From assembly GCA_947258435.1 (NCBI GenBank), contig CAMYID010000013.1, forward strand, positions 186,001 through 250,000: a stretch of DNA of 64,000 bases. Direction: 5' to 3'. Below are positions 989 through 21,152 of this stretch, piece after piece; position 1 is the first letter of the stretch, and each line of letters opens with the position of its first letter. The translations under genes and the position numbers were made by a program. The stretch comes from an uncultured Alphaproteobacteria bacterium (GTDB lineage Bacteria; Pseudomonadota; Alphaproteobacteria; UBA11222). A model generated the notes under the pieces. It was not told the DNA's origin, searched no databases, and worked only from the letters and a program-made list of their open reading frames with translations.

Positions 989-1022
989 TCTTTCACTGCC
1001 GAACCGGCAACAACATATGCTG

Positions 1023-1057
1023 AAAAGCCGCCTCCCGCTCAGAGAGGCGGCTTTTTG
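1023..1057 (+). terminator. Intrinsic terminator, probably bidirectional
   Basis: Perfect stem AGCCGCCTC / GAGGCGGCT with flanking A and T runs (CTTTTTGTTTT on the right), 35 bases after the first alcohol dehydrogenase. It also lies just beyond the stop of the converging hydrolase at 1073, so it can serve both genes. Confidence 0.85.
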
Positions 1058-1072
1058 TTTTCCAACTGGTTG

Positions 1073-1801
1073 TCAGCTGTCGCCGTTTGCGATCTTGTCC
1101 AGAATCGCGGTCAGTTCGTCGGGCATGGCGAAGAAAGGCGAATGCCCGCAATCGAGCGGGAACACCTGTTCGCAGGGCGTGTGCGTATACATGCGTTTTT
1201 GCAGCGAGGGCGTGAGTACACGGTCGTTGCGGCATTCAACGTAATAGCGCGGGATGCGCCCGTAATTTTCAGCGCTAGTATGAAGTGCCGTGGCGAAGGG
1301 AGCCGCGGACTGCCGACACAGCAGTGAAGCGGCGCGCGCCGCATCCTCTGTCGGGCAGTCGTGATAGAATAATTCGGTGATCGCTTCGGAATTGAGCGTG
1401 ACTTCCGACCCATCGGGGGTGAATCCGATATTGCCGGCAAGTCGCGAATCCGGATCGGCATATTCGGCATCCTGCAATGTTTCCCCGTTACCCAGCAGTA
1501 CAGCGCAGATATATGCAAGCCCTTGAACCCTGTCAGGCATGGCCTCGGCCGCCTGGCTGATCACCATCCCGCCCATGCTGTGCCCGGCAAGCAGCGCGGG
1601 GCCATCCATCTCCTCCAGCACCGCGCAAACATAGGCGGCATATCTGTCTATCGTCATCGCAGACAAGGGTTTGGGATTGTCGCCATGTCCGGGAAGATCG
1701 AGCGCAAGCGGCACATGACCCAAATCGCGTAAGCGCTCGCTTACCTTGTTCCAGCACCAAGCACCGTGCCAGGCGCCGTGAATGAGTATGATAGTCGCCA
1801 T
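1073..1801 (-). CDS. Alpha/beta hydrolase, methylesterase/hydroxynitrile-lyase-like
   Basis: 242 residues. The N-terminus has HGAWHGAWCW, the oxyanion-hole signature of the subfamily that includes plant methylesterases, hydroxynitrile lyases and bacterial aryl/pyrethroid esterases. Nucleophile elbow GHSMGG puts the catalytic serine at 75; Asp193 (RND) and His220 (CGHSPF) complete a plausible triad. No signal peptide, so it is cytoplasmic. It is divergent from the second alcohol dehydrogenase, with about 126 bp between the starts, and convergent with the first, so it sits inside the duplicated dehydrogenase pair. Likely role: hydrolysis of an ester whose alcohol product the dehydrogenases could oxidise; this coupling is inference. 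Confidence 0.85.
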   Translation of the reverse strand: MATIILIHGAWHGAWCWNKVSERLRDLGHVPLALDLPGHGDNPKPLSAMTIDRYAAYVCAVLEEMDGPALLAGHSMGGMVISQAAEAMPDRVQGLAYICAVLLGNGETLQDAEYADPDSRLAGNIGFTPDGSEVTLNSEAITELFYHDCPTEDAARAASLLCRQSAAPFATALHTSAENYGRIPRYYVECRNDRVLTPSLQKRMYTHTPCEQVFPLDCGHSPFFAMPDELTAILDKIANGDS

Positions 1802-1927
1802 AATTCGTTCGGAGCCTTTCAGCTGTCCTGCGACCTGCCGTTAGCGGGATGGCCTGTTTTTTGTTGCCGTTGGTCGCAATAGTTGAAACCCTGTACCTAT
1901 AATAAACGAAAAGGGGAGGGACAGGCC

Positions 1928-3013
1928 ATGAAAGCGGCAATATTACGCGAGGTCAAACAACCGCTGCAGATTGAACAGGCGGAGATTTCCAAACCCGGCC
2001 CGCGCGAGGTTCTGATCCGCACTGTGGCGGTCGGGGTATGCCACAGCGATGTGCATATGGCCGATGGGGCCTGGCCAATGCGGCTGCCGACCATTCCGGG
2101 CCATGAGGCGGCGGGTATTGTCGAACAGGTCGGTGCGGACGTGACCTATGTGCAGCCGGGCGATCATGTGATTACCTGCCCGTCTGTTTTTTGCGGCCAT
2201 TGCGATCATTGCCTCACCGGTCATATGTCGCTTTGTACAAGCAAGGAAACCCAGCGCGACCGCGATGAGGAACCGCGCCTGATGCTTGATGGCAGATACA
2301 TGACGCAATTCGGCGGATTGTCAGCCTTTGCCGAGAAGATGCTTGTTCATGAACATGCGCTTGTCAAAATCCGGGAAGATATGCCGCTGGATCGTGCCGC
2401 CCTGATCGGTTGCGGGGTGATGACCGGTGCAGGTGCCGCAATCAATACCGCGAAGGCGGAGCCTGGCTCGACGGTTGCGGTGATTGGCTGTGGCGGTATT
2501 GGCCTGAGTGCGATTAACGGTGCGGCCATCGCGGGAGCAGGTCAGATCATCGCGATCGACATGCTGGGGTCGAAGCTCAACCTTGCCAAGCAGTTCGGCG
2601 CGACCGACGTAATTGATGCGAGCGCGGGCAATGTGGTCGAGCAGGTGCGCGAGCTGACCGGTGGTGGTGTGCATTACAGCTTCGAGGCAATCGGCCTCAA
2701 GCAAACAGCCGAGGATGCGTTCAAGATGGTGAGGACCGGGGGCGTTGCTACCGTGATTGGCATGATCCCGATGGGCACAATGGTTGAGGTGCATGGCGCC
2801 GAGCTGCTGCAGGAAAAACGTCTGCAGGGCTCGCTGATGGGGTCAAACCGCTTTCGGGTCGATATGCCCCGGCTTGTGGACTTCTATCTCGATGGCCGGT
2901 TGCATCTCGATGAAATGATTTCCGATCATATCCGTCTGGAAGACATCAATCAGGCATTCGATAATCTGCGCAAAGGCGGCGTCGCGCGGCAGATCATTAT
3001 GATGGAAAGCTAG
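1928..3013 (+). CDS. Zinc-dependent alcohol dehydrogenase, second copy
   Basis: 361 residues from the ATG at 1928, chosen because AGGGGAGGG lies just upstream and the product then begins MKAAILREV, as usual in the family. Medium-chain dehydrogenase with catalytic zinc residues (VCHSD, GHEAAG), a four-cysteine structural zinc lobe and Rossmann motif GCGGIG ending in IIAID (NAD type). Over the shared length it differs from the copy at 2-988 by scattered substitutions plus many silent changes, so the duplication is not very recent and both copies look selected. The SDR starts 30 bases downstream, probably in the same transcript, giving two oxidoreductases in series. Confidence 0.92.
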   Translation: MKAAILREVKQPLQIEQAEISKPGPREVLIRTVAVGVCHSDVHMADGAWPMRLPTIPGHEAAGIVEQVGADVTYVQPGDHVITCPSVFCGHCDHCLTGHMSLCTSKETQRDRDEEPRLMLDGRYMTQFGGLSAFAEKMLVHEHALVKIREDMPLDRAALIGCGVMTGAGAAINTAKAEPGSTVAVIGCGGIGLSAINGAAIAGAGQIIAIDMLGSKLNLAKQFGATDVIDASAGNVVEQVRELTGGGVHYSFEAIGLKQTAEDAFKMVRTGGVATVIGMIPMGTMVEVHGAELLQEKRLQGSLMGSNRFRVDMPRLVDFYLDGRLHLDEMISDHIRLEDINQAFDNLRKGGVARQIIMMES

Positions 3014-3043
3014 CCGCTGACAGCAGTTCACGGGAGGAAAGTT

Positions 3044-3799
3044 ATGGCGGATCTTAAAGGTAAGGTGGCGGTTGTGACCGGCGCGGGGCAGGGTATCGGG
3101 CGAGCGATTGCCCTGCGGCTTGCCGCAGCCGGTGCCGATGTCGTGGTGGGGGAGCTTGTGCGCGACAGGATCACGGCGACAGTTGAGGCAGTGAAAGCTG
3201 CGGGCGGTCGCGCGGCCGGGGTGGAGGTGGATGTGCGCGACCGGAACCAGGTTGAAACACTGATCGCCGCGGCTTCCGAAAATTTCGGCCGGCTGGATAT
3301 TCTGGTCAATAATGCGGGTACGGACATTGTTCGCGATCTTGTCGATCTGAGCGACGAGGAGTGGGACCTGCAGATCGATGTCAATCTGAAGGGTACGTTT
3401 TATTGCTGCCGTGCGGCGATCCCGGAAATTATCAAAGCGGGCGGCGGGGCAATCGTCAACATCGCCTCGGTCGCGGGATATGTTTGTTATCCGGGGGGCA
3501 CCGCCTATGCGGCGGCAAAAGCCGGGGTCACCGGATTGACACGCGCGCTTGCCGGCGAGGTGGGGCGGCACAATATTCGTGTCAATGCGGTGGCGCCGGG
3601 GCCGATCGATACACCGCTGGCGCGAACCGTGCTGAAAGAAATGGCGACGCGTGACGATCCGCAGCCATTTGCCGGTGTGATCCGCCGCTGGGGCAAGCCT
3701 GAGGAAATTGCCAATGCGGTCGCCTTCCTGGCTTCCGAACAGTCAAGCTATGTCACCGGTGATACGATCAGTGTCAGCGGCGGGGCCTTTATGCACTAA
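3044..3799 (+). CDS. Short-chain dehydrogenase/reductase
   Basis: 251 residues, classical SDR. The cofactor motif TGAGQGIG is at 12-19, NNAG at 89-92 and the catalytic Ser142-Tyr155-Lys159 set (YAAAK) is complete. C-terminal GG.FMH ending is typical. A strong ribosome site, GGGAGGAAAG, precedes the ATG. The gene follows the alcohol dehydrogenase by 30 bases and is probably co-transcribed. General function is NAD(P)-linked oxidation of a hydroxyl, for example a 3-hydroxyacyl-CoA; the exact substrate cannot be read from sequence. Confidence 0.92.
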   Translation: MADLKGKVAVVTGAGQGIGRAIALRLAAAGADVVVGELVRDRITATVEAVKAAGGRAAGVEVDVRDRNQVETLIAAASENFGRLDILVNNAGTDIVRDLVDLSDEEWDLQIDVNLKGTFYCCRAAIPEIIKAGGGAIVNIASVAGYVCYPGGTAYAAAKAGVTGLTRALAGEVGRHNIRVNAVAPGPIDTPLARTVLKEMATRDDPQPFAGVIRRWGKPEEIANAVAFLASEQSSYVTGDTISVSGGAFMH

Positions 3800-8785: not shown

Positions 8786-9979
8786 ATGGACTTACAGTTT
8801 ACCCCTGAGGAAATTGCTTTTCGGGACGAGGTGCGGGACTTTATCGCCGCAAAATATCCCGCGCAGCTGAAAGGCCGCCGCCGGGGGGATGCGGATCTGA
8901 CGAAACAGGACTATCTGTCCTGGCACAAGGTGTTGGCCGAAAAAGGCTGGGTGGCCCCTTCCTGGCCGCTTGAATATGGCGGACAGGACTGGACATCGAC
9001 ACAGAAATATATCTTCAACAATGAAATGGCGCGCGCCGAATGCCTGCAGCTCATGCCCTTCGGGCTTGTCATGGTTGCGCCGGTAATCTGGACCTTCGGG
9101 CGGCAGGATCAGAAGGATTATTTCCTGCCACGCATTTATAATGGCGAGGATTGGTGGTGCCAGGGTTATTCCGAACCCGGTGCGGGGTCCGACCTTGCTT
9201 CGCTGACGACCCGTGCGGTGCGCGATGGGGATCATTATATCGTCAATGGCAGCAAGACCTGGACGACGATGGCGCAGTTCGCCGACATGATGTTCTGTCT
9301 TGTCCGTACCGACCCCGACGTCAAACCGCAGAAAGGAATTTCATTCCTGCTGATCGATATGAAGACGCCGGGCATTACCGTCCAGCCGATTATCACCATG
9401 GATGGCGGACATGAGGTCAATCAGATCTTCCTTGAGGATGTTCGGGTGCCGGTCGCCAATCGCGTGGGCGAGGAAAATGAAGGCTGGACCTATGCCAAGG
9501 TTCTGCTCGGTCATGAACGCAGTGGCATTGCGGGGGTCGCGCGCTCGAAACAGCAGATTGCGCGGTTGAAGGCCTTGGCCGCTGACACGTCCCAAAACGG
9601 CGTGCCGCTCAGCGAAGACCCTGATTTTTCGCGCAAGATTGCGGCGCTTGAGATTGATCTGCTGGCCCTTGAATATACCGATCTGCGTGTATTGGCCTCT
9701 GAGAGCGCAGGTAATGGTCCGGGCCCTGAATCTTCTATTCTGAAGATCAAGGGCACCGAAGTGCAGCAGCGGATTACAGAACTGCTTGTCGAGGCGGCCG
9801 GCTATTACGGTAATCCATATCTGCGCGGCATGAGCTATGAGGGGGATAACTTTCCCATCGGCCCGGAAGAGGCGGTCGGTACCGCGCCGGAATATTTCAA
9901 TATGCGCAAGACCTCGATCTATGGCGGGTCGAATGAGATCCAGCGCAATATTATTGCCAAGGCAGTGCTTGGGCTTTAG
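8786..9979 (+). CDS. Acyl-CoA dehydrogenase, likely catalytic subunit of a heteromeric pair
   Basis: 397 residues from the ATG at 8786 (MDLQFTPEE, with GGAG upstream). FAD-dependent alpha,beta-dehydrogenation of an acyl-CoA. The flavin-binding segment YSEPGAGSD is at 128-135. The C-terminal motif reads IYGGSNEIQR, so the MCAD-type glutamate is Gly here, but GHER places Glu244 where isovaleryl-CoA dehydrogenase-like enzymes keep their base. The next gene, 56 bases downstream, encodes a smaller relative that lacks a base at either place, as in the steroid-degrading alpha2beta2 dehydrogenases of actinobacteria (FadE28-FadE29 type). Heteromer formation is inference. Confidence 0.9.
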   Translation: MDLQFTPEEIAFRDEVRDFIAAKYPAQLKGRRRGDADLTKQDYLSWHKVLAEKGWVAPSWPLEYGGQDWTSTQKYIFNNEMARAECLQLMPFGLVMVAPVIWTFGRQDQKDYFLPRIYNGEDWWCQGYSEPGAGSDLASLTTRAVRDGDHYIVNGSKTWTTMAQFADMMFCLVRTDPDVKPQKGISFLLIDMKTPGITVQPIITMDGGHEVNQIFLEDVRVPVANRVGEENEGWTYAKVLLGHERSGIAGVARSKQQIARLKALAADTSQNGVPLSEDPDFSRKIAALEIDLLALEYTDLRVLASESAGNGPGPESSILKIKGTEVQQRITELLVEAAGYYGNPYLRGMSYEGDNFPIGPEEAVGTAPEYFNMRKTSIYGGSNEIQRNIIAKAVLGL

Positions 9980-10035
9980 ACAGCGGAAAAGGTTTGGCAG
10001 GCGCGCGCCACGCGCGGGCAGGAAGGAAAGACAGA

Positions 10036-11166
10036 ATGGATTTCTCCTTTACGGAAGAGCAGACATTGCTGCGCAACAGTGTGCAGCGCTTTATCCAGGA
10101 TAATTATGATTTCGACAGCCGGCAGAAAATCGTCCATAGCGACAGCGGCTGGAACCCCGATCATTGGAAGGCCTTTGCCGAGCTGGGATTGCTGGCTGCG
10201 CCATTTGACGAGCAATATGGTGGCTTCAGTGGCGGACCGGTAGAAACCATGATCGTTATGGAAGAATTCGGCCGCGGTCTCGTGGTCGAGCCATATCTGC
10301 AAACGGTGATCTTGTGTGGCGGTCTGATCAATATGGCGGGCAGTGAAAAGCAGAAAAGCGACTTGCTGCCGAAAATTGCCGGTGGCGAACTTGTGCTTGC
10401 CTGCGCCTATGCTGAACCGCAGGGCCGTTATAATCTTGCGGATCTGTTGACGCGTGCCGAAAAATCGGGCGATGGCTATGTGCTGAACGGGCAGAAAGCC
10501 GTGGTTGTTGGGGCGCCCTGGGCAGACAAGCTGATCGTATCCGCGCGGACAAGCGGCGATCAGCGCAATAAGGACGGGATCAGCCTGTTTATCGTCGATA
10601 AGGCCGCTGATGGCGTATCGACACGCGATTACCCGACCGTCGATGGTCAGCGCGCATCGGAAATCAAGTTCGAGAATGTGAAACTTGATGCCGCGGCCCT
10701 GCTGGGTGCGGAAGGGGCGGCGTTGCCGGTCCTTGAGGCGGCAGTGGATGCCGCGATTGCGGGACTGTGCGCGGAAGCGGTTGGCTGCATGCGGGTTTTG
10801 ACCGATGCGACCGTCGAATATTGCAAGACGCGCAAACAGTTCGGTCAGCCGATCGGCAATTTTCAGGTTCTGCAGCACCGGATGGTGGATATGTTCATGG
10901 AGTGTGAGCAGTCCCTGTCGATGACTTATATGGTCAACCTGAAACTTGATGAGGATGAGGCCGAACGTGTGAAGGCGGCATCGTCCGCCAAGGCGCAGAT
11001 CGGCAAGTCGGGCCGGTTCGTCGGGCAGCAGGCGGTGCAGCTGCATGGCGGCATGGGCATGACCGATGAGCTGAATGTCGGTCACTATTTCAAGCGCCTG
11101 ACAATGATCGACAGCCAGTTTGGCAATGTCGATTATCATCTGCGGCGGTTTGCGGCAGCAAGCTAG
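10036..11166 (+). CDS. Acyl-CoA dehydrogenase-like protein, likely non-catalytic partner
   Basis: 376 residues from the ATG at 10036, preceded by GGAAGGAAAG; a longer upstream start would overlap that site. Acyl-CoA dehydrogenase fold with QLHGGMGMTDE near the C-terminus. The usual flavin/substrate segment is weak (YAEPQGRYNLADL), the C-terminal catalytic-Glu position reads SQFGNV, and the alternative position (VLEAAVDAAIAGL) lacks the E-R pair. It therefore resembles the beta-type subunit of heteromeric dehydrogenases. It sits 56 bases after its probable partner and ends at a strong terminator. A free-standing role is less likely but not excluded. Confidence 0.85.
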   Translation: MDFSFTEEQTLLRNSVQRFIQDNYDFDSRQKIVHSDSGWNPDHWKAFAELGLLAAPFDEQYGGFSGGPVETMIVMEEFGRGLVVEPYLQTVILCGGLINMAGSEKQKSDLLPKIAGGELVLACAYAEPQGRYNLADLLTRAEKSGDGYVLNGQKAVVVGAPWADKLIVSARTSGDQRNKDGISLFIVDKAADGVSTRDYPTVDGQRASEIKFENVKLDAAALLGAEGAALPVLEAAVDAAIAGLCAEAVGCMRVLTDATVEYCKTRKQFGQPIGNFQVLQHRMVDMFMECEQSLSMTYMVNLKLDEDEAERVKAASSAKAQIGKSGRFVGQQAVQLHGGMGMTDELNVGHYFKRLTMIDSQFGNVDYHLRRFAAAS

Positions 11167-11211
11167 AGCCAGGAACATCCGCCCGGCTGATATGGCGGTC
11201 CGGTAAACAAG

Positions 11212-11246
11212 AAAGCCTCCCGGTTTTGCCCGGGAGGCTTTTTTTT
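11212..11246 (+). terminator. Intrinsic terminator, bidirectional
   Basis: Stem AAAGCCTCCCG / CGGGAGGCTTT followed by a run of eight T on the plus strand. It is 45 bases after the acyl-CoA dehydrogenase pair and 25 bases beyond the stop of the converging chemoreceptor gene; read leftwards it is also followed by T-rich sequence (TTTCTTGTTT). Confidence 0.9.
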
Positions 11247-11271
11247 ACGGATTTTGTTGTTGGCAGTGCTG

Positions 11272-13500
11272 CTATGCAGCCCGGATTTCGTTGAGAAAAC
11301 GCTCGACCTCGGCACGCAGTTCAACCGATTGCGTGTCAAGTTCGCTGGCGGCGTTGACAACCGCGGTGGCCGCCGCACCTGCCTCATCATTCGCCTTGCG
11401 GACAAACTCGATGCTACCGGAAACAGAACGGGTCGCCTCGGCCGCTTCATTTGTATTCCGAGAAATTTCTTCTGTCGCGGCACTTTGCTCCTCCACCGCT
11501 GAGGCGGCGGATGTAACAGCTTCGCTGATTTCGCCGACAGTCGCGCGGATATGTCCGATCGCGTCGACCGCATTGCTGGTCACGCCCTGCATGGCTTCAA
11601 TCTGTGCGCCGATTTCATCGGTTGCCCGTGCCGTCTGGTCGGCAAGGTTCTTGACCTCGGTCGCAACAACGGCAAACCCTTTACCGGCGTCGCCCGCTCG
11701 TGCTGCCTCAATCGTTGCATTCAGGGCCAGCAGATTGGTCTGATTGGCGATATCGTGGATCAGATTGACAACATCGCTGATGCGGGAGGCAGCTTCTGCG
11801 AGTGACTGCACCGTTTCATTCGTCGAATCCGCGCGCTGCACCGCGGATTGAGCGATTGAATTGGAGTTGGCCATCTGCTGGGAAATTTCGTTGATTGAAG
11901 AACTTAATTGTTCGCACGCAGTAGCCACTGTTTCGACATTGCTATTGGCATTTTGCGACGAGTCGGCGACCAGATCGCTTTGCTCATGGGCGCGGGTGGC
12001 GGTGCCGGACATCTGTTCGGCGGTCCCCATCATATTTGTGGCGTTTTGCGATACGGCCTCGACAATTCTGCCAACGCGTTGCTGAAAGTCATCGGCCAGC
12101 TTCTGCATGGCTTCGTGTTTTTCCTGCGCGGCTTTTTCGCGCAATTCGTCACGCTCTTTCTTGGCGCGGTCCATTTCAATCGCATTTTCCTTGAATATCT
12201 GGACAGCGCCGGACATCTGGCCGATTTCGTCTTTTCTGTTCTGTGCCGGGACAGATACCGACAGATCGCCATTGGCCAAAGCGCGCATCGCGCTGACCAT
12301 GGATTTGAGCGGTGTTGTCACGCTCCGACCGACATAGAACCAGGCGATGAATGCAACCACCGCAATCGTCGACGCAGCCAGCACAATCAGCGTTGTCACG
12401 CTGTTGGCGATACTGCTGCGAACTTCACTCACACCTGCATCCACCGCCGCGCGACGGGTCGTGACCTGCGAGTTGACGATGGTCGTCAACTCGCCGGCGA
12501 TTTCCTGCGCCTGATGCACCGAGCGTTCGGTCTGCGCAATCTGGTCCAGTTCTGCAAGCCGCTTGTCGAATATATCGTTTTCGGAATAGCCGTTGAGGAT
12601 CAGCTGTTCCACATTCTGATTGAGCGTCTCATAGCTTTCCCGCCATTTCGGGTTTCGCGACAGGGTAAACTGGTAGAGCATACCGGTACCGTCGGAGATC
12701 GAACGGGTAGCTTCGAAGAAGCGCTCAGCAAGCCGCGCTACATTGTCCGGTTGGGTCGCGCCGCCAGATTCAGCAAGTAGTCCCGCAGCAAGGTTTGTGT
12801 ACGCATTGATATCCATCGCCCCCTGCAGGATGCTCATCTCGTCCTGCAGATTGTTTACCGAACTTGTATCATTGTCATAAAGCAGCTCCATATTCTCGAA
12901 TACGCCGTCATTTGCGTTCTGAATGAAGAACTGGGTCTGGGACAGAATATTGCTGTGCAGGTTGCGGATCTGCTCAAGCTCCATTATCCGCGCATTCCTG
13001 GCATCGATCATTGCCGTGACGGATTTATCGAGCGACCGGGTCTGATCATTCAGTGTCGATACGATCTCCAGCGTCCGGGCTGCCTCTTCCGCGCCCATCT
13101 GGGCACGCACGGCATCGCTCAGGCGGTTGAGCGTTTCCTGACTTGCGTCAAGCTGCTGACGAAGTTTCTGGCGTTCCTCATGACTTTCAACAGACGAAAG
13201 AACACGCAATGTGTTGGTGATCTGATTGGCCTGTTCGGCAAGATCGAAGGCTGTGGACATACCCACGATATCGTGTTGCGCCATATGGGTGAATGTCTGT
13301 TCGACGGTGCGGAACGAATTCCACGAGACCAGACAGGCAACCAACGTCAGTAAGCCGACGACAGCATAGGTGCCAAACAGCTTTGCCTGAATGCTACGGC
13401 TCTTTGTACGGATAGTTGTGGCGGGTTTGTTTTTCTTGTTTTTCCTGGTCCCGGGTTTCCTTAAGCGGAATCCATTAGACCGTTCCACGGTGCCAGCCAT
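11272..13500 (-). CDS. Methyl-accepting chemotaxis protein
   Basis: 742 residues from the ATG at 13500, which has AAGGA and GGGG upstream; an ATG at 13527 has no such site. Architecture: basic N-terminus, membrane helix about 41-60, a helical periplasmic sensor domain of about 305 residues (60-367, size consistent with the helical-bimodular HBM type), second helix about 368-390, HAMP ([11 protein letters not shown] onward) and a cytoplasmic signalling hairpin with the conserved tip [20 protein letters not shown]. The C-terminus ends FLNEIRAA, so there is no CheB/CheR-tethering pentapeptide. No che gene is nearby. It may sense the compound degraded by the surrounding genes, but that is inference from position. 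Confidence 0.93.
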
Positions 13501-13843
13501 TGTAATCCCCAATTCCTTCTGGACCATCGGCTCAATTATGATCGTGAGCGCAGGTCGGGAGATAGCATTATTACCCGATCGCCCGACGCCTCTGGACTGA
13601 TTGGCCGTGATACCTTTTGTTGCGCCTCCTACAGCGACCGGCATAAATGACGGCAGGTTCGCTGCACACTGGGAAATTAGGTCAGTTTTCTTACGAAACG
13701 GTAAAATTACGATGGCGATACAGGATAATTTATGTGCGATTACCTTTCGGCGGCCCCGGTTTGTTTTCTGGTCACGCTATTGGCGGGGTGGCGGTAAACT
13801 GCCAAAGTATATCTGAAAACAACATCAGGGAGGGGAAACGGGC
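13501..13843 (+). other. Intergenic region between divergent chemoreceptor and crotonase genes
   Basis: 343 bases without a convincing gene. It must hold both divergent promoters and GGGAGGGG, the ribosome site of the crotonase (13826-13833). The middle part is AT-richer than the genes around it. I find no clear hexamer pair, palindrome or hairpin that I would defend. Confidence 0.6.
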
Positions 13844-14668
13844 ATGGCTGATAAACAGGATGCACTGCTTTACGAAAAGGACGGACATATCGTCACTTTG
13901 ACGATGAACCAGCCTGAGCTGCGCAATTCGATGGGCGATCCGGCGGTGCTGCCCTTGTGGCAACAGGCGGCGGACCGGATCAATGCCGATCGCGACGTGC
14001 GCTGCGTAATTCTTGCGGGCGCGGGCAAGCATTTCTCCACCGGCGGTAATATCCGCAATATGGGGGACCGTGCGCCCAGTCCCGATCAGGGAACCCGCGG
14101 CCGTTCGCCCGCACATGCGCGGGCGCGTTACCGCACGGGTGTGCACCGTATCGTGCGCGCGGTGCGCAGTATCGAACTGCCCGTGATCGCCGCGGTACAA
14201 GGTGCCGCCGTCGGCCTTGGCTGCGATGTGACGTGCCTGTGCGATATGCGGATCTGCGCCGATAATGCGAGATTTGCTGTTACCTTTCTCAAGCTTGGTC
14301 TCAATCCCGGTGATGGTGGCGCATGGCATCTGCAAAAGGTGATCGGCCTCGCCCGGGCGAGCGAAATGTTCTACACCGGCGATCCGATCGATGCGGCAAC
14401 GGCTCTTGAGTGGGGGCTTGTCAGTAAGGTTGTGCCGCTCGATTCGCTGATGGATGAGGCAAGGGCACTGGCTGAGCGGGTCGTGCGGCAGCCGCCCGAT
14501 GTGCTGCGCATGACCAAGGTGCTGCTGCGGACCGCGCAAACCGGCGATATCGAGACAGTGCTCGAGATGTCGGCCGCGATGCAGGGCGTTGCCCACCATA
14601 CCGAGGATCACCTTGAGGCGATCAACGCCTTTTTCGAAAAACGTCCGGGCAATTTCAAGGGGCAATAG
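13844..14668 (+). CDS. Enoyl-CoA hydratase/isomerase family protein with altered active site
   Basis: 274 residues, crotonase superfamily. The oxyanion-hole regions (KHFSTGGNI at 62-70; QGAAVGLG from 119) are kept. Aligned by eye with rat enoyl-CoA hydratase, the two catalytic glutamates fall at Asp128 (GLGCD) and Phe148 (VTFLKLGLNPG), so the usual water-activating pair is absent. The PGDGG turn occurs in some other crotonases. It may be an isomerase, a hydrolase or a retro-aldol/retro-Claisen enzyme rather than a hydratase. A strong ribosome site, GGGAGGGG, precedes it. The thiolase-like gene follows after 121 bp in the same direction. Confidence 0.85.
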   Translation: MADKQDALLYEKDGHIVTLTMNQPELRNSMGDPAVLPLWQQAADRINADRDVRCVILAGAGKHFSTGGNIRNMGDRAPSPDQGTRGRSPAHARARYRTGVHRIVRAVRSIELPVIAAVQGAAVGLGCDVTCLCDMRICADNARFAVTFLKLGLNPGDGGAWHLQKVIGLARASEMFYTGDPIDAATALEWGLVSKVVPLDSLMDEARALAERVVRQPPDVLRMTKVLLRTAQTGDIETVLEMSAAMQGVAHHTEDHLEAINAFFEKRPGNFKGQ

Positions 14669-14789
14669 CCCGCTTCTGTCCATGCGCTTTGTACGTAAAC
14701 TCAGGCTAGTGCATGGACTCTGCCGGGGCGTTTGCGCCATAAAGCGGTACATGAATGCCGCTATCACATAACAATGAGGGAACTGTTAG

Positions 14790-15962
14790 ATGAGCATTAG
14801 GGGAAAAGCGTATATTGCGGGGATATATGAACATCCCACGCGGTTGGCGCTTGGGAAAACGCTTCCGCAGCTGCATGCGGAACTTGCCAAGGGGGCGCTG
14901 GAAGATGCCGGGCTCACCAAGGACGATGTGGACGCTTATTACTGTGCTGGCGATGCGCCGGGCATGGGCGGCGTCGATATGGTCGAATATATGGGCCTTA
15001 ATGTGCGTCAGATTGACAGCACGGAGACCGGCGGTTCGTCCTATGTACTGCATGTAAACCATGCGGCGCAGGCGATTGCGGCAGGCCACTGCAAGGTTGC
15101 GCTGATTACGCTTGCCGGCCGCCCTGCGGCGGACGCAAAGGAAAAAGTCGCTTTCCGCCCGGGCGGCGATCCGCCACCGGCGATCGGCTTCGAAAGCCCG
15201 TACCGGCCGACCATCGTGAACATGTATGCGATGTGCGCCCAGCGGCACATGTATGAATATGGCACGACGAGCGAACAGCTCGCCTGGATCAAGGTTGCCG
15301 CCTCCCATCACGCGCAACACAATGAGCATGCGCTGCGCCGCGAGGTTGTGACGGTCGAGGATGTGGTCAATTCGCCGATCATCGCATCGCCTTTGCACCG
15401 GTATGACTGCTGCGTGATCACCGATGGCGGCGGTGCCGTTGTCGTTGTGGCGCCGGAAATCATGAAAAACCTGAAGCGTCCGGCTGTGAAGGTGCTGGGT
15501 GCGGGTGAAGCGCCCAAGCATCTGATGGGCGGCAAGGTGGATCTGACCTATTCCGGCGCACGCTGGTCCGGCCCCAAGGCATTTGAAGAAGCCGGCGTGT
15601 CCCATGCCGATATCAAATATGCCTCGATCTACGATTCCTTCACGATCACGGTGCTTGAAACGATCGAGGATCTGGGCTTCTGCGAGAAGGGCGAAGGCGG
15701 CAAGTTTGTGTCCGACGGCAATCTGATTTCGGGCACCGGCAAGCTGCCATTCAACACCGATGGCGGCGGGTTATGCAATAACCATCCGGGTAACCGGGGC
15801 GGCATGACCAAGGTTCTGGAAGCGGTCCGTCAGGTTCGCGGCGAAGCTCATCCCAAGGTGCAGGTGCCCAATTGCGATATCGCATTGGCGCATGGCACCG
15901 GTGGCCTGCTTGGCGCGCGGATGGGCAGCGCAACCTGCATTCTGGGGAATGAAGACGCATGA
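14790..15962 (+). CDS. Thiolase-like / lipid-transfer-type protein lacking the usual cysteine
   Basis: 390 residues, thiolase superfamily, SCP2-thiolase/lipid-transfer-protein branch. The region where thiolases carry the acyl-accepting cysteine reads TETGGSSY (79-85), so serine stands in its place; GGGLCNNHPGNRGG near the C-terminus corresponds to the His loop. Its last four bases (ATGA) overlap the start of a DUF35 gene. Thiolase-like/DUF35 pairs are known in the steroid side-chain aldolases (Ltp2 with the DUF35 domain of ChsH2), where the pair cleaves a tertiary alcohol CoA ester by retro-aldol chemistry. GAGGGA precedes the ATG. Retro-aldolase is my favoured inference; a true thiolase is unlikely without the cysteine. 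Confidence 0.88.
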   Translation: MSIRGKAYIAGIYEHPTRLALGKTLPQLHAELAKGALEDAGLTKDDVDAYYCAGDAPGMGGVDMVEYMGLNVRQIDSTETGGSSYVLHVNHAAQAIAAGHCKVALITLAGRPAADAKEKVAFRPGGDPPPAIGFESPYRPTIVNMYAMCAQRHMYEYGTTSEQLAWIKVAASHHAQHNEHALRREVVTVEDVVNSPIIASPLHRYDCCVITDGGGAVVVVAPEIMKNLKRPAVKVLGAGEAPKHLMGGKVDLTYSGARWSGPKAFEEAGVSHADIKYASIYDSFTITVLETIEDLGFCEKGEGGKFVSDGNLISGTGKLPFNTDGGGLCNNHPGNRGGMTKVLEAVRQVRGEAHPKVQVPNCDIALAHGTGGLLGARMGSATCILGNEDA

Positions 15963-16351
15963 GTGAGACAAAACCGAAAGTGAAAGCGCCCAAGGTCAAT
16001 CACGAAACCAAGGCGTTCTGGGAAGCCACCGCCGAAGGCAAGCTGATGGTAGGTAAATGCAATGAATGCGGGGAGTATCACTACTATCCACGTTCGCTGT
16101 GTCCTTTCTGCTTCAGCGACAAGACCGAGCTTGCGCAAACCGCTGGCAAGGGCAAGATCTACAGCTTCAGCGTGACGAGCCACCCCAAGTCGCCCTATAC
16201 CATCGCCTATATCACCCTGGCGGAAGGGCCGACCATTCTGAGCAATATCGTCGAAAGCGATTTTGACAAGCTTGCCATCGGGCAGGATGTGGAAGTTGTC
16301 TTCTACGATACCGGCGAAGGTAATGCCGTGCCGATGTTCAAAACCGTCTGA
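15959..16351 (+). CDS. DUF35 zinc-ribbon/OB-fold protein
   Basis: 130 residues. N-terminal helix (TKAFWEATAEGKL) leads into a rubredoxin-like zinc ribbon with Cys34, Cys37, Cys48 and Cys51 (CNECG...CPFC), then an OB fold (GKIYSFSVTSHP onward). DUF35 proteins bind acyl-CoA and work with thiolase-like enzymes. The ATGA overlap with the preceding gene implies translational coupling and an obligate pair. A strong terminator follows. Confidence 0.92.
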   Translation: MSETKPKVKAPKVNHETKAFWEATAEGKLMVGKCNECGEYHYYPRSLCPFCFSDKTELAQTAGKGKIYSFSVTSHPKSPYTIAYITLAEGPTILSNIVESDFDKLAIGQDVEVVFYDTGEGNAVPMFKTV

Positions 16352-16374
16352 TATGCCGACATTGACGATTTAAG

Positions 16375-16405
16375 AAGGGCGGCGGGGCATTCCCGCCGCC
16401 CTTTT
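16375..16405 (+). terminator. Intrinsic terminator after the thiolase/DUF35 pair
   Basis: GC-rich stem AAGGGCGGCGGG / CCCGCCGCCCTT with a short loop, then TTTTT, 24 bases after the DUF35 stop. It separates the crotonase-thiolase-DUF35 unit from the third acyl-CoA dehydrogenase. Confidence 0.88.
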
Positions 16406-16517
16406 TGCTGCCTGCTTTTGCTTGCCCCGGCTGCGGCTGCGGCATAGCCTGCGGATAATTGAAAATAAAATCATCGCGTCGTGCAGGGGCGGGTGGATAA
16501 CAGGGAAGGGGAGAGAG

Positions 16518-17681
16518 ATGGATTTCAATCTGGCTGAAGAGCACCGGATTTTGCAGGATATGGTGGCGAAATTTGTCGCCAATGAGCTGATGCCTTATGA
16601 GAATGCCATCCTCGAGCGCGAGGCGACCGGGCAGGTCGTTGCGCTGACCCCCGACGAGGTCGCGCCGATCCATGCCAAATGCAAGGAGTTGGGGCTTTGG
16701 GGCCTCGATGTGCCCGAGGCGCTGGGGGGTGCGGATATTGGCGCGGTTGCCAAAATGTGCATTGGGGAGGAGCTGGCCTATACTATCACGCCCTTCACCT
16801 TTCCGCCCGATTCCCCCAACCTGCATATGCTGCTTGCCACCGTGAATGAAGATCAGCGAAAGCGCTATCTCGAACCCTATGCGCGCGGGGAAACGGTATC
16901 AGCGATCGCGATTTCCGAACCGGGCGCGGGGGCGGACCCTTCGGGGATGAAAACCCGTGCGGAAAAGCGCGGCGATAAATGGGTCATCAATGGCCAGAAG
17001 ATCTGGATCAGCCGCATGCACGAATCCGCCTTCACCATCGTGATGGCGGTGACCGATCCGGAAAAGGGTTCGCGCGGCGGGATTACCGCTTTCCTGGTCG
17101 ACCAGGATAATCCGGGCATGCGTGTCGCCCGCGATATCCCCATCCTCGGCGGGCAGCGCACCGCTGAAGTCCTGTTTGAGGATTGTGAGGTGGGAGACGA
17201 GCAGGTGCTGGGGGAAATCGGCAATGGTTTTGGCCCCATGCAGTTGCGGCTCACCGTGCGGCGGCTCGAGATCGGCGCCTGGTCGGTCGGGATCGCGCGG
17301 CGTGCGCTGGATATGCTGATCGAGCATGCCAATAACCGTGTGACATTCGGTGAAAAGCTGGCTGACCGTCAGGCTATCCAGTGGTGGGTGGCCGATGCGG
17401 CAACCAAAATCCACGCCACCCGCCTGATGGTGCAGCAGGCCGCCTGGAAGGTCGAACAGGGGCAGGATGTCCGGATCGAAGCCTCGATGATCAAGGTGTT
17501 CGCGACCGAGATGGTGAAGGAAGTCGTCGACCGGGCGATGCAGGCTCATGGGGCAATGGGCCTCGCCTGCGAATTTCCGCTGCAATATATGTATAAGCGG
17601 GTGCGCGCCTTCCAGATCTTCGAGGGCCCGACCGAGGTGCATCGCTGGGTTGTCGCGCGCCGGCTGCTTGCGGGAAGATAG
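16518..17681 (+). CDS. Acyl-CoA dehydrogenase, third copy
   Basis: 387 residues from the ATG at 16518, preceded directly by GGGGAGAGAG. The flavin-binding segment SEPGAGADPSGM and the C-terminal FEGPTEVHR are intact, with Glu369 as the MCAD-type base; unlike the neighbouring pair it looks self-sufficient. The N-terminal half (ENELMPYENAI-like) resembles long/branched-chain acyl-CoA dehydrogenases. It stands alone after a terminator and before an LLM oxidoreductase. Likely role: first oxidation step for another chain length or branch of the same substrate class; the substrate is unknown. Confidence 0.92.
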   Translation: MDFNLAEEHRILQDMVAKFVANELMPYENAILEREATGQVVALTPDEVAPIHAKCKELGLWGLDVPEALGGADIGAVAKMCIGEELAYTITPFTFPPDSPNLHMLLATVNEDQRKRYLEPYARGETVSAIAISEPGAGADPSGMKTRAEKRGDKWVINGQKIWISRMHESAFTIVMAVTDPEKGSRGGITAFLVDQDNPGMRVARDIPILGGQRTAEVLFEDCEVGDEQVLGEIGNGFGPMQLRLTVRRLEIGAWSVGIARRALDMLIEHANNRVTFGEKLADRQAIQWWVADAATKIHATRLMVQQAAWKVEQGQDVRIEASMIKVFATEMVKEVVDRAMQAHGAMGLACEFPLQYMYKRVRAFQIFEGPTEVHRWVVARRLLAGR

Positions 17682-17834
17682 GGTGTGGCACCCGCCTTTG
17701 CCAATCGATAGGCGGATAAGGTGCATTGACCATTGCCGCGCAGACCGGTCACACTCTAACCTTCAGGAAACAAGACAGGAAATGCCGGTGCGATCTGTTC
17801 GTCCGGCCAATAAGAATTAGCAAGGGGTATCAGG

Positions 17835-19079
17835 ATGCGCTTTGGTGTTTTTTACGAATTGCAATTGCCCAAGCCGTGGAATGAGGGGGATGAACATCGC
17901 TTGTTTCACGAGGCGCTGGATCAGGTGGTCCTGGCCGACAAGCTTGGCTTTGATTATGCGTGGGAGGTGGAGCATCACTTCCTCGATGAATATTCCCATG
18001 CGTCGGCGCCGGAAGTGTTTCTGGCCTGCGCCGCCGGGAAGACCAGGAATATCCGGCTTGGCCATGGCATCCGGCAGGTGATCCCGAAATATAATCATCC
18101 CGCGCGGTCGGCGGAATGTATTGCGACGCTTGATCTGCTGTCGAACGGGCGGGTTGAATTCGGCATTGGCGAAAGCGCGACACGGCTTGAGTTGGGCGGC
18201 TTCAATATCCCGGCAAAGGATAAGCGGGCCATGTGTCTTGAGGCGGCCGAGCAGATCGCCAATATGATGGTGCTTGATCCCTATCCCGGCTTTGAGGGGC
18301 AGTTTTTCAGCATGCCCTGCCGCAATGTACTGCCCAAGCCGTTGCAGAACCCCCATCCGCCGATGTGGATCGCCTGTACCAACCGCGACACGATCAAGGT
18401 GGCGGCGCGTAACGGCATCGGGGCGCTGGCATTTTCCTTCCTCGATCCCGAGGAAGCGAAGAGATGGGCCGAGGTTTATTACGACATCATCAAGTCGGAA
18501 GAATGTGTGCCGATCGGTCATTCGGTGAATGCGAATATCGCGCTCGTCTCCAATTTCTCCCTGCATCAGGATCGGGAGGAAGCGATCCGCCGCGGTCATG
18601 AAGGCTTTGAGTTCTTCGGTTATGCGCTGAATGCGCTGGTTGCCCATGATACGGTGCCGGGCCGCACGGATCTGTGGGGTGAGTATCTTCAGCAGCGCGG
18701 CAACCGGACCGAGGAAATCATCGAGAAGTCGCGCAGCGGCGAGTATCTGCCGAGCGGTATCGGTACGCCTGACGATATGCGGCAGCATTTGCGCGCGCTT
18801 CAGGATGCCGGTGTCGATCAGGTCATCGTGATGCAGCAGGCCGGGCGTAACAGGAATGAGCATATTCGGGAATCGCTCGAACTGTTCGCGGCGGAAGTCA
18901 TGCCCGAATTTGCCGAGGGGCGTGAGGCGCGCGAGCGTCAAAAGGCCGAAGAACTCGCCCCCTATATCGAGGCGGCGCTGGCGCGGAAGCAATATATGAA
19001 GCCGCTTGCCGACGATGAAATTCCCGTCGTCCAGGCGTCCGTCGCCCAGGCGATTGTGGGGCAGGGGTCGGTGGACTAA
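17835..19079 (+). CDS. LLM-class flavin-dependent oxidoreductase (luciferase-like)
   Basis: 414 residues, bacterial luciferase-like TIM barrel. Begins MRFGVFYELQLPKPW; other family features are HHFLDEYSHASAPEVFLA, IRLGHGIRQV and DLLSNGRVEFGIGES. Such enzymes are FMN- or F420-dependent monooxygenases or oxidoreductases, often opening rings or oxidising terpenoids and alkanes. AAGGGG lies upstream of the ATG. The C-terminal about 60 residues are charged and beyond the usual barrel end. It is followed by a terminator. Cofactor and substrate are not readable. Confidence 0.9.
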   Translation: MRFGVFYELQLPKPWNEGDEHRLFHEALDQVVLADKLGFDYAWEVEHHFLDEYSHASAPEVFLACAAGKTRNIRLGHGIRQVIPKYNHPARSAECIATLDLLSNGRVEFGIGESATRLELGGFNIPAKDKRAMCLEAAEQIANMMVLDPYPGFEGQFFSMPCRNVLPKPLQNPHPPMWIACTNRDTIKVAARNGIGALAFSFLDPEEAKRWAEVYYDIIKSEECVPIGHSVNANIALVSNFSLHQDREEAIRRGHEGFEFFGYALNALVAHDTVPGRTDLWGEYLQQRGNRTEEIIEKSRSGEYLPSGIGTPDDMRQHLRALQDAGVDQVIVMQQAGRNRNEHIRESLELFAAEVMPEFAEGREARERQKAEELAPYIEAALARKQYMKPLADDEIPVVQASVAQAIVGQGSVD

Positions 19080-19159: not shown

Positions 19160-19939
19160 CTAACTGTTGCGGGCGATGAAATCCCGCACTGCCTGATTGA
19201 AGGCCTCCGGGGCTTCGATATTGATGGCATGCCCGCCATCGGCACCCACCACTTCAAGGCCGGGAATGTGTTTCTCGCCATATTCGCGGTGGGGGGTAAA
19301 CCGCTTTTCCTGTTCTCCGGCAACAAGCAGGGTCGGCACCTTCGTCGCGCCGACCTCATCAGCGACCGAGGCATGGGGCGATGTATATTTGAAAACCCGC
19401 GCTATGCCTGAGGGGTTGAGAAGCGGCGCATCCTCCAGCAACTCTTCCTGCGCACCGGGTGGCAGGCGCTTGGCATGGATCGGATGTATACGCATTTTCT
19501 TCAACCCTTCCGGACCGCCGCTTTCAAGCTTCTGGGCCAGTTTGTTGACATCGCGATAGAGCTCTTTCGTGACTTCGTTTGTCGCCAGCGCCGATGTTGA
19601 ATTGGTAAAAACCTGCCCCATGACCCGGTCGGGATAGTGCAGGGAATAGCGCAGTGTGGCGGTCGCGCCGAATGACTGACCGCACAGGAACCAGCGTTCG
19701 GCCCCCACGGCTTTGCGGATATTTTCGACCTGCGCGACATATTCCAGCGGATCGTAGCAGGCCGGATCCTCAGGCGAAGGGCTGCGCCCGTGACCCCAGA
19801 ATTCCGCAATCACGGGGGTTGAGAACTGTTTCAGCGCGTCAAGATTGCGCCGCCACTGGGCGCGGCTCGACAGCATGCCGTGTAGCAGAAACAGGAATGG
19901 GCCGTTGCCTTCGTGAACTTCATAATAAAACTGTGTCAT
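19160..19939 (-). CDS. Alpha/beta hydrolase
   Basis: 259 residues. LHGMLSSRAQW gives the oxyanion hole, GQSFG the nucleophile Ser89 and GGHAINIEAP the base His237; the acidic residue is probably in the VAGEQEKRFTP stretch. No signal peptide. It resembles carbon-carbon bond or ester hydrolases used in ring-cleavage pathways, although family alone does not settle this. On the minus strand, convergent with the first LLM gene. Three 21-bp-spaced direct repeats lie about 40-100 bases upstream of its start and may be an operator. Confidence 0.88.
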   Translation of the reverse strand: MTQFYYEVHEGNGPFLFLLHGMLSSRAQWRRNLDALKQFSTPVIAEFWGHGRSPSPEDPACYDPLEYVAQVENIRKAVGAERWFLCGQSFGATATLRYSLHYPDRVMGQVFTNSTSALATNEVTKELYRDVNKLAQKLESGGPEGLKKMRIHPIHAKRLPPGAQEELLEDAPLLNPSGIARVFKYTSPHASVADEVGATKVPTLLVAGEQEKRFTPHREYGEKHIPGLEVVGADGGHAINIEAPEAFNQAVRDFIARNS

Positions 19940-20093: not shown

Positions 20094-21152
20094 TCAGGCA
20101 CTTTCGCTTGCCTGCCGTCGTGTCGCCGCCAGATCGGCCATGAATTCGATGGCCTCAAGCTGCCCTGTCGCGATGGTCAGGCCCGTGGCGCCTGAATCCG
20201 CCCAGTCCGCAAACCGTTTTTCGATCCGCTCGCGCGGGCCGACAAGCGCGTTCTCGTCGACATATTCATCGGGCACCGCATCGGCGGCTTCATTCTTGCG
20301 CTTGGCAAGATAAAGCTCCTGTATCCGCGCCGCCGCGTCGCCAAACCCCCGGCGGATCATCATATCCTTGTGGAAATTCTTGTCCGGATGGCCCATTCCG
20401 CCGACATAAAGCGCCACATTGGGCTTGAGCTTCTTCAATCCGGTGGCGATATCGTCAGTGATGATCACGCTGGTGCTGGCCTGAATTTCAAAATCCTTGA
20501 GCGATTTGCCATTACCGGCGCGTTTGAAGCCTTCCTCAAGCCAGGGGCCATACATTTTCATCGAGCCGGGCACGAAATTCAGCGGCAGCCAGCCATCCGC
20601 GATCTCGGCGGTCAGCCGTACATTCGTTTCTGTCCCGGTGCCAAGCCAGATCGGTATTTTCGGGTTGATATGCAGGATGGATTTAAGTGGCTTGCCAACA
20701 CCCAGCGCGCCGTCACCCTGATAAGGTAGCGAGATTTCGCGCCCCTCATGGCTGACCGGCTCCTTGCGGTCGCGGATTTTCCGCATGATCTGGACATAAT
20801 CGCGTATCCGCCAATAGGGTTTGCCCCAGGGCTGCCCGTACCAACCTTCGACAATCTGCGGCCCCGACACCCCAAGCCCCAGGATAAAGCGGTTGCCGCC
20901 GGCCAGATCGTCGACGGTTGCCGCGGACATCATGGTGGCGGCCGGGCTGCGCGCGGCAAGCTGGATAATGCCTGTGGCCAGCCGGATTCGCTTTGTGTGG
21001 GCAGCAATATAGGCAAGCGGGGTGATTGCGTCTGATCCATAGGCTTCCGCCGTCCACACCGAATCATAGCCAAGCTCTTCCGCCAGCCTGATCCGCTCCA
21101 TCGGCAGATTTAAGCGTGGGCCGGAATAGCCGATCGACAAGCCGAGTTTCAT
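20094..21152 (-). CDS. LLM-class oxidoreductase, Rv3520c-like
   Basis: 352 residues from the ATG at 21152, with AGGGAG just upstream; the frame stays open to 21584 across the tRNA but that extension is not real. Starts MKLGLSIGYSGP; AEELGYDSVWTAEAYGSDAITPLAY and IRLATGIIQLAARSPAATMMSA are typical of the F420-type LLM subfamily related to mycobacterial Rv3520c, though many proteobacterial members may use FMN. It is a second luciferase-like oxidoreductase in the cluster and only distantly similar to the first. Leftward, upstream of the hydrolase at 19160-19939, and possibly in one transcript with it. Confidence 0.9.
   Translation of the reverse strand: MKLGLSIGYSGPRLNLPMERIRLAEELGYDSVWTAEAYGSDAITPLAYIAAHTKRIRLATGIIQLAARSPAATMMSAATVDDLAGGNRFILGLGVSGPQIVEGWYGQPWGKPYWRIRDYVQIMRKIRDRKEPVSHEGREISLPYQGDGALGVGKPLKSILHINPKIPIWLGTGTETNVRLTAEIADGWLPLNFVPGSMKMYGPWLEEGFKRAGNGKSLKDFEIQASTSVIITDDIATGLKKLKPNVALYVGGMGHPDKNFHKDMMIRRGFGDAAARIQELYLAKRKNEAADAVPDEYVDENALVGPRERIEKRFADWADSGATGLTIATGQLEAIEFMADLAATRRQASESA

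Follow-up and report, generated by a model that had tools for sequence, protein, structure and literature searches.

Independent modules as a probable reading of a 10-kb acyl-CoA gene region in an uncultured alphaproteobacterium

Genes for three acyl-CoA dehydrogenases, a crotonase, a thiolase-fold protein with a DUF35 partner, and a luciferase-like oxidoreductase lie within 10 kb of each other in an uncultured alphaproteobacterium. Do they encode a single pathway? A preliminary description of this DNA raised that possibility and proposed a CoA-dependent route for a bulky substrate, comparable to actinobacterial steroid side-chain breakdown. We consider it likely, at a probability of roughly 0.6, that the region is instead a juxtaposition of independent modules. 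The first of these, ACD1-ACD2-ECH, would be what is left of an operon conserved in Alphaproteobacteria (ACD1-ACD2-ECH-ABM-ACD1b). The second, THI-DUF35, would be a portable heteromer, and LLM1 and the hydrolases would be neighbours rather than pathway members.

Gene content and layout of the locus

The window (the complete stretch of 64,000 nucleotides that was analysed) carries the following features.

2–3799: ADH/hydrolase/ADH/SDR gene group, about 5 kb from the focal set
8786–9979, + strand: ACD1, acyl-CoA dehydrogenase, large subunit by its match to TIGR03204; FAD motifs
10036–11166, + strand: ACD2, small subunit, PimD-like (TIGR03203); Glu at the Glu376 position, FAD motifs lost
11212–11241, no strand assigned to the feature: inverted repeat resembling a terminator, placed between ACD2 and the MCP gene, which converge on it; 12 pairs, 8 of them G-C
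11272–13644, − strand: MCP, methyl-accepting chemotaxis protein (chemoreceptor; Pfam MCPsignal and HAMP)
13844–14668, + strand: ECH, crotonase of the PRK09245 group (NF006699) lacking both hydratase glutamates
14790–15962, + strand: THI, thiolase-fold protein of the PRK08142 group (NF006010), probable DUF35-dependent retro-aldolase
15959–16351, + strand: DUF35, partner of THI, with zinc ribbon and OB fold (Pfam zf-ChsH2, OB_ChsH2_C)
16518–17681, + strand: ACD3, self-sufficient acyl-CoA dehydrogenase of the ordinary type; FAD motifs and Glu position
17835–19079, + strand: LLM1, luciferase-like flavin/F420 oxidoreductase (Pfam Bac_luciferase)
19160–19939, − strand: alpha/beta hydrolase (Pfam Abhydrolase), convergent with LLM1

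The six focal genes and LLM1, including the third dehydrogenase and the LLM oxidoreductase of the preliminary description, were confirmed at these positions by ORF coordinates and by Pfam or family models. The hydrolase, ADH, and SDR genes that it placed alongside do exist, but the group at 2–3799 is set apart from the focal genes by a phosphomannomutase-like gene and cobalamin genes.

ACD1 and ACD2 are 56 bp apart, the reading frames of THI and DUF35 overlap by 4 bp, and ECH is located 121 bp upstream of THI in the genus of the window. ECH, THI, DUF35, ACD3, and LLM1 are co-directional, none of the gaps between them exceeding about 170 bp, and, judging from this layout, could form a single transcript. 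The MCP gene separates the dehydrogenase pair from ECH and thereby breaks the otherwise conserved order ACD1-ACD2-ECH; at its position, relatives have either no gene or a different gene on the − strand. The repeat at 11212–11241 was called on the − strand and graded strong, and presumably works in both directions. Neither the MCP gene (11272–13644) nor this repeat is mentioned in the preliminary description.

Co-conservation across genomes

Co-location was tallied in 191 alphaproteobacterial genomes, with orthologs counted as linked when found within 12 kb. Besides the genome of the window, 23 genomes contain both ACD1 and ECH, and in 15 of these the two are linked. ACD1 and THI are linked in 2 of 16 genomes, and THI and LLM1 in one of six, that one belonging to the window's own family. 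No linkage was found for THI with ECH (0/6) or ACD3 (0/7), nor for ACD1 with LLM1 (0/16) or ACD3 (0/14). Outside the window's family, the 191 genomes contain no linked pair besides ACD1-ECH and the two cases of ACD1-THI.

The operon ACD1-ACD2-ECH-ABM-ACD1b is uninterrupted in L143, L145, and L151 and occurs with interruptions in L146, L147, and L154; the ABM protein and the second ACD1-like gene (ACD1b) usually join the ACD1-ACD2-ECH core. The other two PimC-like proteins of the genome were considered as ACD1b but are only 49–52% identical to it and are thus not orthologs. THI/DUF35, in turn, has varying neighbours across 80 loci. Its range extends from Porticoccaceae, where it adjoins purA, to haloarchaea, and plasmids that carry it come from alpha- and betaproteobacteria, actinobacteria, and haloarchaea. 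We favour independent modules because the tally links mainly ACD1 and ECH, because the neighbours of THI/DUF35 differ among these loci and plasmids, and because the terminator-like repeat parts ACD2 from the MCP gene.

Two observations argue against this reading: the co-directional run from ECH to LLM1, and the presence of THI/DUF35 beside PimC/D-type dehydrogenases elsewhere (Parvibaculum L009, the Roseomonas group, L170, Variovorax L181), in other bacteria together with a MaoC hydratase and a CoA ligase. Since this proximity recurs in several lineages, the modules may be functionally connected. With ECH now directly upstream of THI in the genus, desaturation, the crotonase step, and retro-aldol cleavage may act jointly.

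For ACD3, which has the FAD motifs and the catalytic Glu position in one chain, the evidence suggests that it is sometimes coupled to the THI-DUF35 module: it adjoins THI/DUF35 in sibling genera and is near it in Caulobacteraceae. In the sibling genera, LLM1 is separated from ACD3 (in L105, from DUF35) by DNA-repair genes. Orthologs of LLM1 with 65–76% identity sit in unrelated contexts, and none of the 15 has THI, ACD1, or ACD2 as a neighbour in surroundings spanning as much as 20 kb. This speaks against LLM1 as a pathway monooxygenase, and its gene is probably a neighbour outside the pathway. The hydrolase gene at 19160–19939 stays beside LLM1 within the family.

One dedicated pathway for one bulky acid, as proposed in the preliminary description, is in our view unlikely. 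ACD1-ACD2 would desaturate, ECH hydrate, and THI-DUF35 cleave by a retro-aldol reaction, with ACD3 and LLM1 processing the released product. This chemistry is coherent, the full focal gene order is kept in a congeneric genome (G001), and analogous operons with PimC/D-like dehydrogenases, MaoC, THI, DUF35, SDR, and ligase occur in Variovorax and L170. However, beyond the genus, the orthologs are not co-conserved: those of THI, ACD3, and LLM1 are scattered, and LLM1 has contexts of its own. The conserved neighbourhood that the preliminary description had suggested looking for in related genomes thus holds for ACD1-ACD2-ECH but not for most of the set, and that description had itself named scattered homologs as evidence against its proposal. 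Furthermore, the MCP gene and the repeat lie inside the region, positions 8786–19079 contain neither a CoA ligase nor a transporter gene, and ECH lacks the hydratase glutamates. A haloarchaeal plasmid locus (L178) with members of the ECH, THI, DUF35, ACD, and LLM families was rejected as a case of deep co-conservation, since its ACD and LLM proteins share no more than 29% and 25% identity with ACD3 and LLM1, respectively, and are not orthologous.

The dehydrogenase pair and the crotonase

The top-scoring family models for ACD1 and ACD2 are those of the large and small subunits of pimeloyl-CoA dehydrogenase, with scores below the curated cut-offs (TIGR03204, 499 bits, cut-off 624; TIGR03203, 440 bits, cut-off 653). 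The tandem arrangement of large and small subunits is also as in PimC/PimD; a pim operon context was not seen. Because the best models are pimeloyl-CoA dehydrogenases, the heteromeric build need not mean a steroid substrate. Among the papers accessible to this analysis, none connected pimeloyl-CoA dehydrogenase with Alphaproteobacteria.

The motif losses in the two proteins are complementary, which substantiates the two-subunit-type pair of the preliminary description. ACD1 keeps the FAD motifs SEPGAGSD and GGSNEIQR and lacks a Glu where MCAD has Glu376, whereas ACD2 has lost the FAD motifs and carries Glu at this position in all 20 aligned sequences. ACD2 adjoins ACD1 in nearly all compared loci. 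From this motif pattern and gene order, we infer a complex and its reaction: ACD1 (FAD) and ACD2 (Glu) would together make up a single heteromeric dehydrogenase for the desaturation of an acyl-CoA. Tandem large and small genes, and FAD motifs and Glu376-type base split between the subunits, are characteristics of a ChsE-type heteromer, and both are seen here. ACD1 also resembles chain A of PDB 4x28, which we take to be an alpha2beta2 acyl-CoA dehydrogenase of the ChsE4-ChsE5 type, in having the FAD motifs and a HER motif while missing the Glu376-type base; identity is low, and a steroid substrate is not indicated for ACD1. As the HER motif places a Glu near the isovaleryl-type base position, either ACD1 or ACD2 is a candidate source of the base.

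ECH belongs to the PRK09245 group (NF006699, 367 bits, cut-off 354). The unusual residues noted in the preliminary description were verified: at the positions that we take to correspond to Glu144 and Glu164 of the rat enzyme, ECH has Asp128 and Phe148, so that both catalytic glutamates of enoyl-CoA hydratase are absent from all 16 aligned orthologs. Asp157 is likewise invariant in these. With neither glutamate present, plain hydration is no likelier than isomerisation or some other reaction of the crotonase type. ECH would act on the unsaturated product of the dehydrogenase or on a further product.

The thiolase-fold protein and its DUF35 partner

THI exceeds the cut-off of the PRK08142 thiolase-domain group (NF006010, 706 bits, cut-off 462). 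Both the nucleophilic Cys and the C-terminal acid/base Cys of canonical and SCP2 thiolases are missing: in essentially all of 87 homologs, Gly-Gly-Ser-Ser replaces the nucleophile motif and Gly-Thr-Gly-Gly the C-terminal Cys motif, and a Cys at residue 83 occurs in two of them. The term "Cys-less" used in the preliminary description is accurate for these two catalytic positions but not for the protein, which has nine cysteines elsewhere, several invariant across the 87 homologs. Also invariant are Gly81-Gly82, Tyr281-Asp-Ser-Phe, Cys329, and His332, the latter in a retained thiolase His-Pro motif. In DUF35, the four zinc-ribbon cysteines are largely conserved.

The preliminary description of THI as a thiolase-like protein coupled to DUF35 is supported. 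The closest structural neighbour is 4u4e, a putative thiolase from Sphaerobacter thermophilus (45% identical to THI, with which it shares the YDSF and His-Pro motifs), followed by the Sal-Shy and Ltp2-ChsH2 aldolases. The structure model of THI is of moderate quality (pLDDT 75.5) and weak at residues 326–335, the His332 loop. In a tree of THI, Sal, and Ltp2, the branches are long and the branching order is not settled.

The missing thiolase cysteines and the invariant YDSF, Cys329, and His332 make THI a likely DUF35-dependent retro-aldolase that is neither Sal nor Ltp2. Most likely, the heteromer would split a 3-hydroxyacyl-CoA by a retro-aldol reaction in which Tyr281 serves as the base and one of Ser283, Cys329, and His332 as the acid. 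The bile-acid aldolase CtSal-CtShy (PDB 9myr; PMC12329534), at 33% identity, resembles THI in its thiolase fold coupled to DUF35, in having Gly-Gly where thiolases carry the nucleophilic Cys, and in the Tyr of the YDxx motif (Tyr302). Its motif is YDCY, so that catalytic Cys304 is Ser in THI; its Gln352 corresponds to His332, and its DUF35 domain is fused to MaoC, whereas DUF35 is a separate small protein here. TcLtp2-ChsH2 (PDB 6ok1), also 33% identical, shares the fold, the DUF35 partner, and the catalytic-base Tyr, but has YDHF in place of YDSF; Tyr344 of Ltp2 has no aligned equivalent, THI having His at the aligned loop.

A thiolase- or acyltransferase-like nature of THI-DUF35, as in BbsAB or PhlABC, is rather improbable. 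Superfamily, fold, and His-Pro motif agree with this, but the Gly-rich replacements at both Cys motifs and the Tyr-Asp-x-Phe motif, as in known aldolases, speak against it.

Degradation of a steroid or bile-acid side chain (Scd/Shy/Sal or ChsE/ChsH/Ltp2 kind), whose hallmarks are a heteromeric dehydrogenase together with a thiolase-like protein coupled to DUF35 (PMC12329534, PMC12502768, PMC6678751), is very improbable given the 33% identities and deviating motifs of THI (YDSF and His rather than YDCY and Gln or YDHF and Tyr), the absence of a MaoC hydratase from the stretch, and the results of a search that covered one KstD model and HsaA. The KstD model NF009479 has no match anywhere in the genome (95% complete). 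The best HsaA-like protein (404 bits, cut-off 450; G000:C23:42123-43256) adjoins gltB/gltD-like, ACD, MaoC, and crotonase genes, not ring-cleavage genes. Nothing was found to support the steroid, terpenoid, or branched-acid substrate of the preliminary description; its actinobacterial comparison applies to the heteromeric dehydrogenase and the DUF35-coupled fold devoid of catalytic cysteines, not to the 10-kb set as one pathway.

The leads of interest are the two modules, not the 10-kb cluster. A crotonase family that lacks both hydratase glutamates, is fixed beside a heteromeric dehydrogenase class-wide, and persists even in small genomes points to an acid in wide use whose degradation is still unnamed. 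Since catabolic plasmids and chromosomes of organisms ranging from Proteobacteria to haloarchaea commonly carry the DUF35-coupled YDSF-type protein, knowledge of its reaction would annotate hundreds of clusters; it would also put to the test whether aldolase chemistry has more than one origin within the SCP2-thiolase superfamily. Only tentatively can it be put forward that ACD1-ACD2-ECH-ABM-ACD1b is an undescribed catabolic operon widespread among Alphaproteobacteria, those with genomes of 1.4–1.7 Mb included, that uses a heteromeric dehydrogenase alongside a crotonase whose active site is not of the hydratase type, and that, in addition, THI-DUF35 represents a third kind of catalysis among DUF35-dependent aldolases (YDSF, Cys329, His332), recruited to many different breakdown pathways.

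In ibuprofen degradation, the role of DUF35 is taken by IpfE. The ipfDE-encoded thiolase is described as freeing propionyl-CoA in an alphaproteobacterium (PMC9195938), and IpfDE is likened here to THI/DUF35 on the strength of that description.

Gene content of the region

Every gene named in the preliminary description was found in its place. That account is partly confirmed: the gene set stands, but it omitted a chemoreceptor gene and a terminator-like repeat, and its term 'Cys-less' for the thiolase-like protein holds for the two thiolase Cys positions and not for the whole protein, which has nine cysteines.

Features of the region (window coordinates, strand, description)
8786-9979, +, ACD1, large acyl-CoA dehydrogenase subunit; best model pimeloyl-CoA dehydrogenase large subunit, score below cut-off
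10036-11166, +, ACD2, small subunit; best model pimeloyl-CoA dehydrogenase small subunit, score below cut-off
11212-11241, strong terminator-like repeat
11272-13644, -, chemoreceptor gene, between ACD2 and ECH
13844-14668, +, ECH, crotonase; PRK09245 crotonase group, above cut-off
14790-15962, +, THI, thiolase-fold protein; PRK08142 thiolase-domain group, far above cut-off
15959-16351, +, DUF35, zinc ribbon and OB fold partner of THI; 4-bp overlap with THI
16518-17681, +, ACD3, dehydrogenase of ordinary type
17835-19079, +, LLM1, luciferase-like oxidoreductase; exceeds no NCBIfam cut-off

Two closely similar zinc alcohol dehydrogenases (2-988, truncated by the window start, and 1928-3013) enclose a hydrolase; the pair looks like a recent duplication.

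The ACD1-ACD2-ECH operon

LLM1, ACD1, THI, ACD3, and ECH were used as queries against one set of 191 alphaproteobacterial genomes, and pairs separated by at most 12 kb were tallied with the studied genome excluded. The pair counts are approximate because the tally covers most match places (for ACD1, those among the matches listed) and because ACD1 and ECH have paralogs; the contrast between pairs is nonetheless large. Among the matches listed, ACD1 and ECH are within 12 kb in approximately 15 of the 23 genomes having both, and ACD1 and THI in approximately 2 of 16 (among the ACD1 matches listed). THI and LLM1 are this close in one of six genomes, which belongs to the window's own family. The remaining pairs showed no linkage within 12 kb among the matches listed for the 191 genomes. 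Clear linkage is limited to ACD1-ECH. The proposal of a single CoA-dependent pathway for a bulky substrate (steroid, terpenoid or branched acid) is thus only partly supported: as a neighbourhood conserved in related genomes, ACD1-ECH holds, while the rest of the set (0 to 2 genomes for the other pairs) does not.

In the linked loci ACD1, ACD2, and ECH stand in this order, and next usually come genes for a small ABM-domain protein and for another PimC-like dehydrogenase (ACD1b); this conserved operon is apparently undescribed. Phosphomannomutase-like and CobT genes are often close to ACD1, also in the window. The window has neither ABM nor ACD1b; the two other PimC-like proteins of the studied genome were rejected as ACD1b, not being orthologs. 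Between ACD2 and ECH some genomes have no gene, and others carry varied genes on the opposite strand (L146 10762-12264, histidine kinase-like by eye; L154 10993-12417, different from those of L146 and the window). Phosphotransferase-family (APH) genes are close to the operon in some genomes (L151 4858-5805; L150 13267-14388, the latter by eye).

In the alignment, ACD1 retains the FAD motifs, and its Glu376 position is not a Glu. In ACD2 this position is Glu in 20/20 aligned sequences, and the FAD motifs are gone. At the sequence level, such complementary loss is what an obligate two-subunit dehydrogenase would show, as had been proposed, and 4x28 chain A has the same motif pattern as ACD1. Since the HER-motif Glu of ACD1 is close to the isovaleryl-type base position, either subunit could supply the catalytic base. 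The unusual residues ascribed to the crotonase were confirmed: Asp128 and Phe148 replace Glu144 and Glu164 of rat hydratase, and both, like an extra Asp157, are invariant in 16 orthologs.

THI/DUF35, a possible separate catalytic type

THI carries Gly-Gly-Ser-Ser and Gly-Thr-Gly-Gly at the two thiolase Cys positions, and Tyr281-Asp-Ser-Phe, Cys329, and His332 are invariant among 87 homologs. The equivalent motifs are YDCY with Gln in the Sal aldolase and YDHF with Tyr in the Ltp2 aldolase (PMC12329534), whereas THI combines Tyr-Asp-Ser-Phe with His332. Its predicted structure (pLDDT 75.5) has 4u4e as the closest fold, with Sal and Ltp2 next. What remains of interest is THI/DUF35 as a putative catalytic type of its own among the thiolase-fold proteins that are coupled to DUF35.

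THI adjoins DUF35 in nearly all of 80 fetched loci; the remaining neighbours vary. They include purA in Porticoccaceae (named from reading the sequence), PimC/D-type dehydrogenases in Parvibaculum, Roseomonas relatives, and L170, and, on a Variovorax plasmid, MaoC, SDR, CoA ligase, and proteins similar to ACD1 (52%) and ACD2 (45%). Plasmids of Rhodococcus, Phaeobacter, and haloarchaea also carry THI/DUF35. A Halomarina plasmid locus (L178; THI 60% identical) repeats the list of families but was rejected as the same cluster, its ECH, ACD, and F420 LLM being from other subfamilies and not orthologs. ACD3 orthologs are close to THI in the window's family and in Caulobacteraceae. In sibling genera, THI-DUF35 is separated from LLM1 by genes for Ada, a DNA-damage oxygenase, and an AlkB-like protein, located between ACD3 and LLM1 (L106 12892-15301; L107 5109-7521).

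Possible reactions and cofactor F420

Judged from the sequences, ACD1/ACD2 would desaturate an acyl-CoA, ECH would perform a crotonase reaction, possibly other than hydration, and THI/DUF35 would probably split a 3-hydroxyacyl-CoA, releasing a short acyl-CoA together with an aldehyde or ketone. ECH and THI lie so close to each other in this genus that they may act jointly, although the conservation of the neighbourhood does not point to this. With respect to steroids, one KstD model found no match across the studied genome (95% complete). The best HsaA-like protein, a flavin monooxygenase (G000:C23:42123-43256; L182 14106-15311), falls short of the 450-bit cut-off with 404 bits and has gltB/gltD-like, ACD, MaoC, and crotonase genes as neighbours.

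LLM1 orthologs (65-76% identity) occur in unrelated contexts, some of them housekeeping. A second luciferase-like protein, LLM2 (window 20094-21152, - strand), exceeds the cut-off of TIGR03559 (F420-dependent Rv3520c family). The studied genome also encodes CofD with a score above the cut-off, so that F420 may be within reach of the LLM enzymes. Taken together, the LLM2 and CofD scores suggest that the source organism is probably an F420-using alphaproteobacterium.
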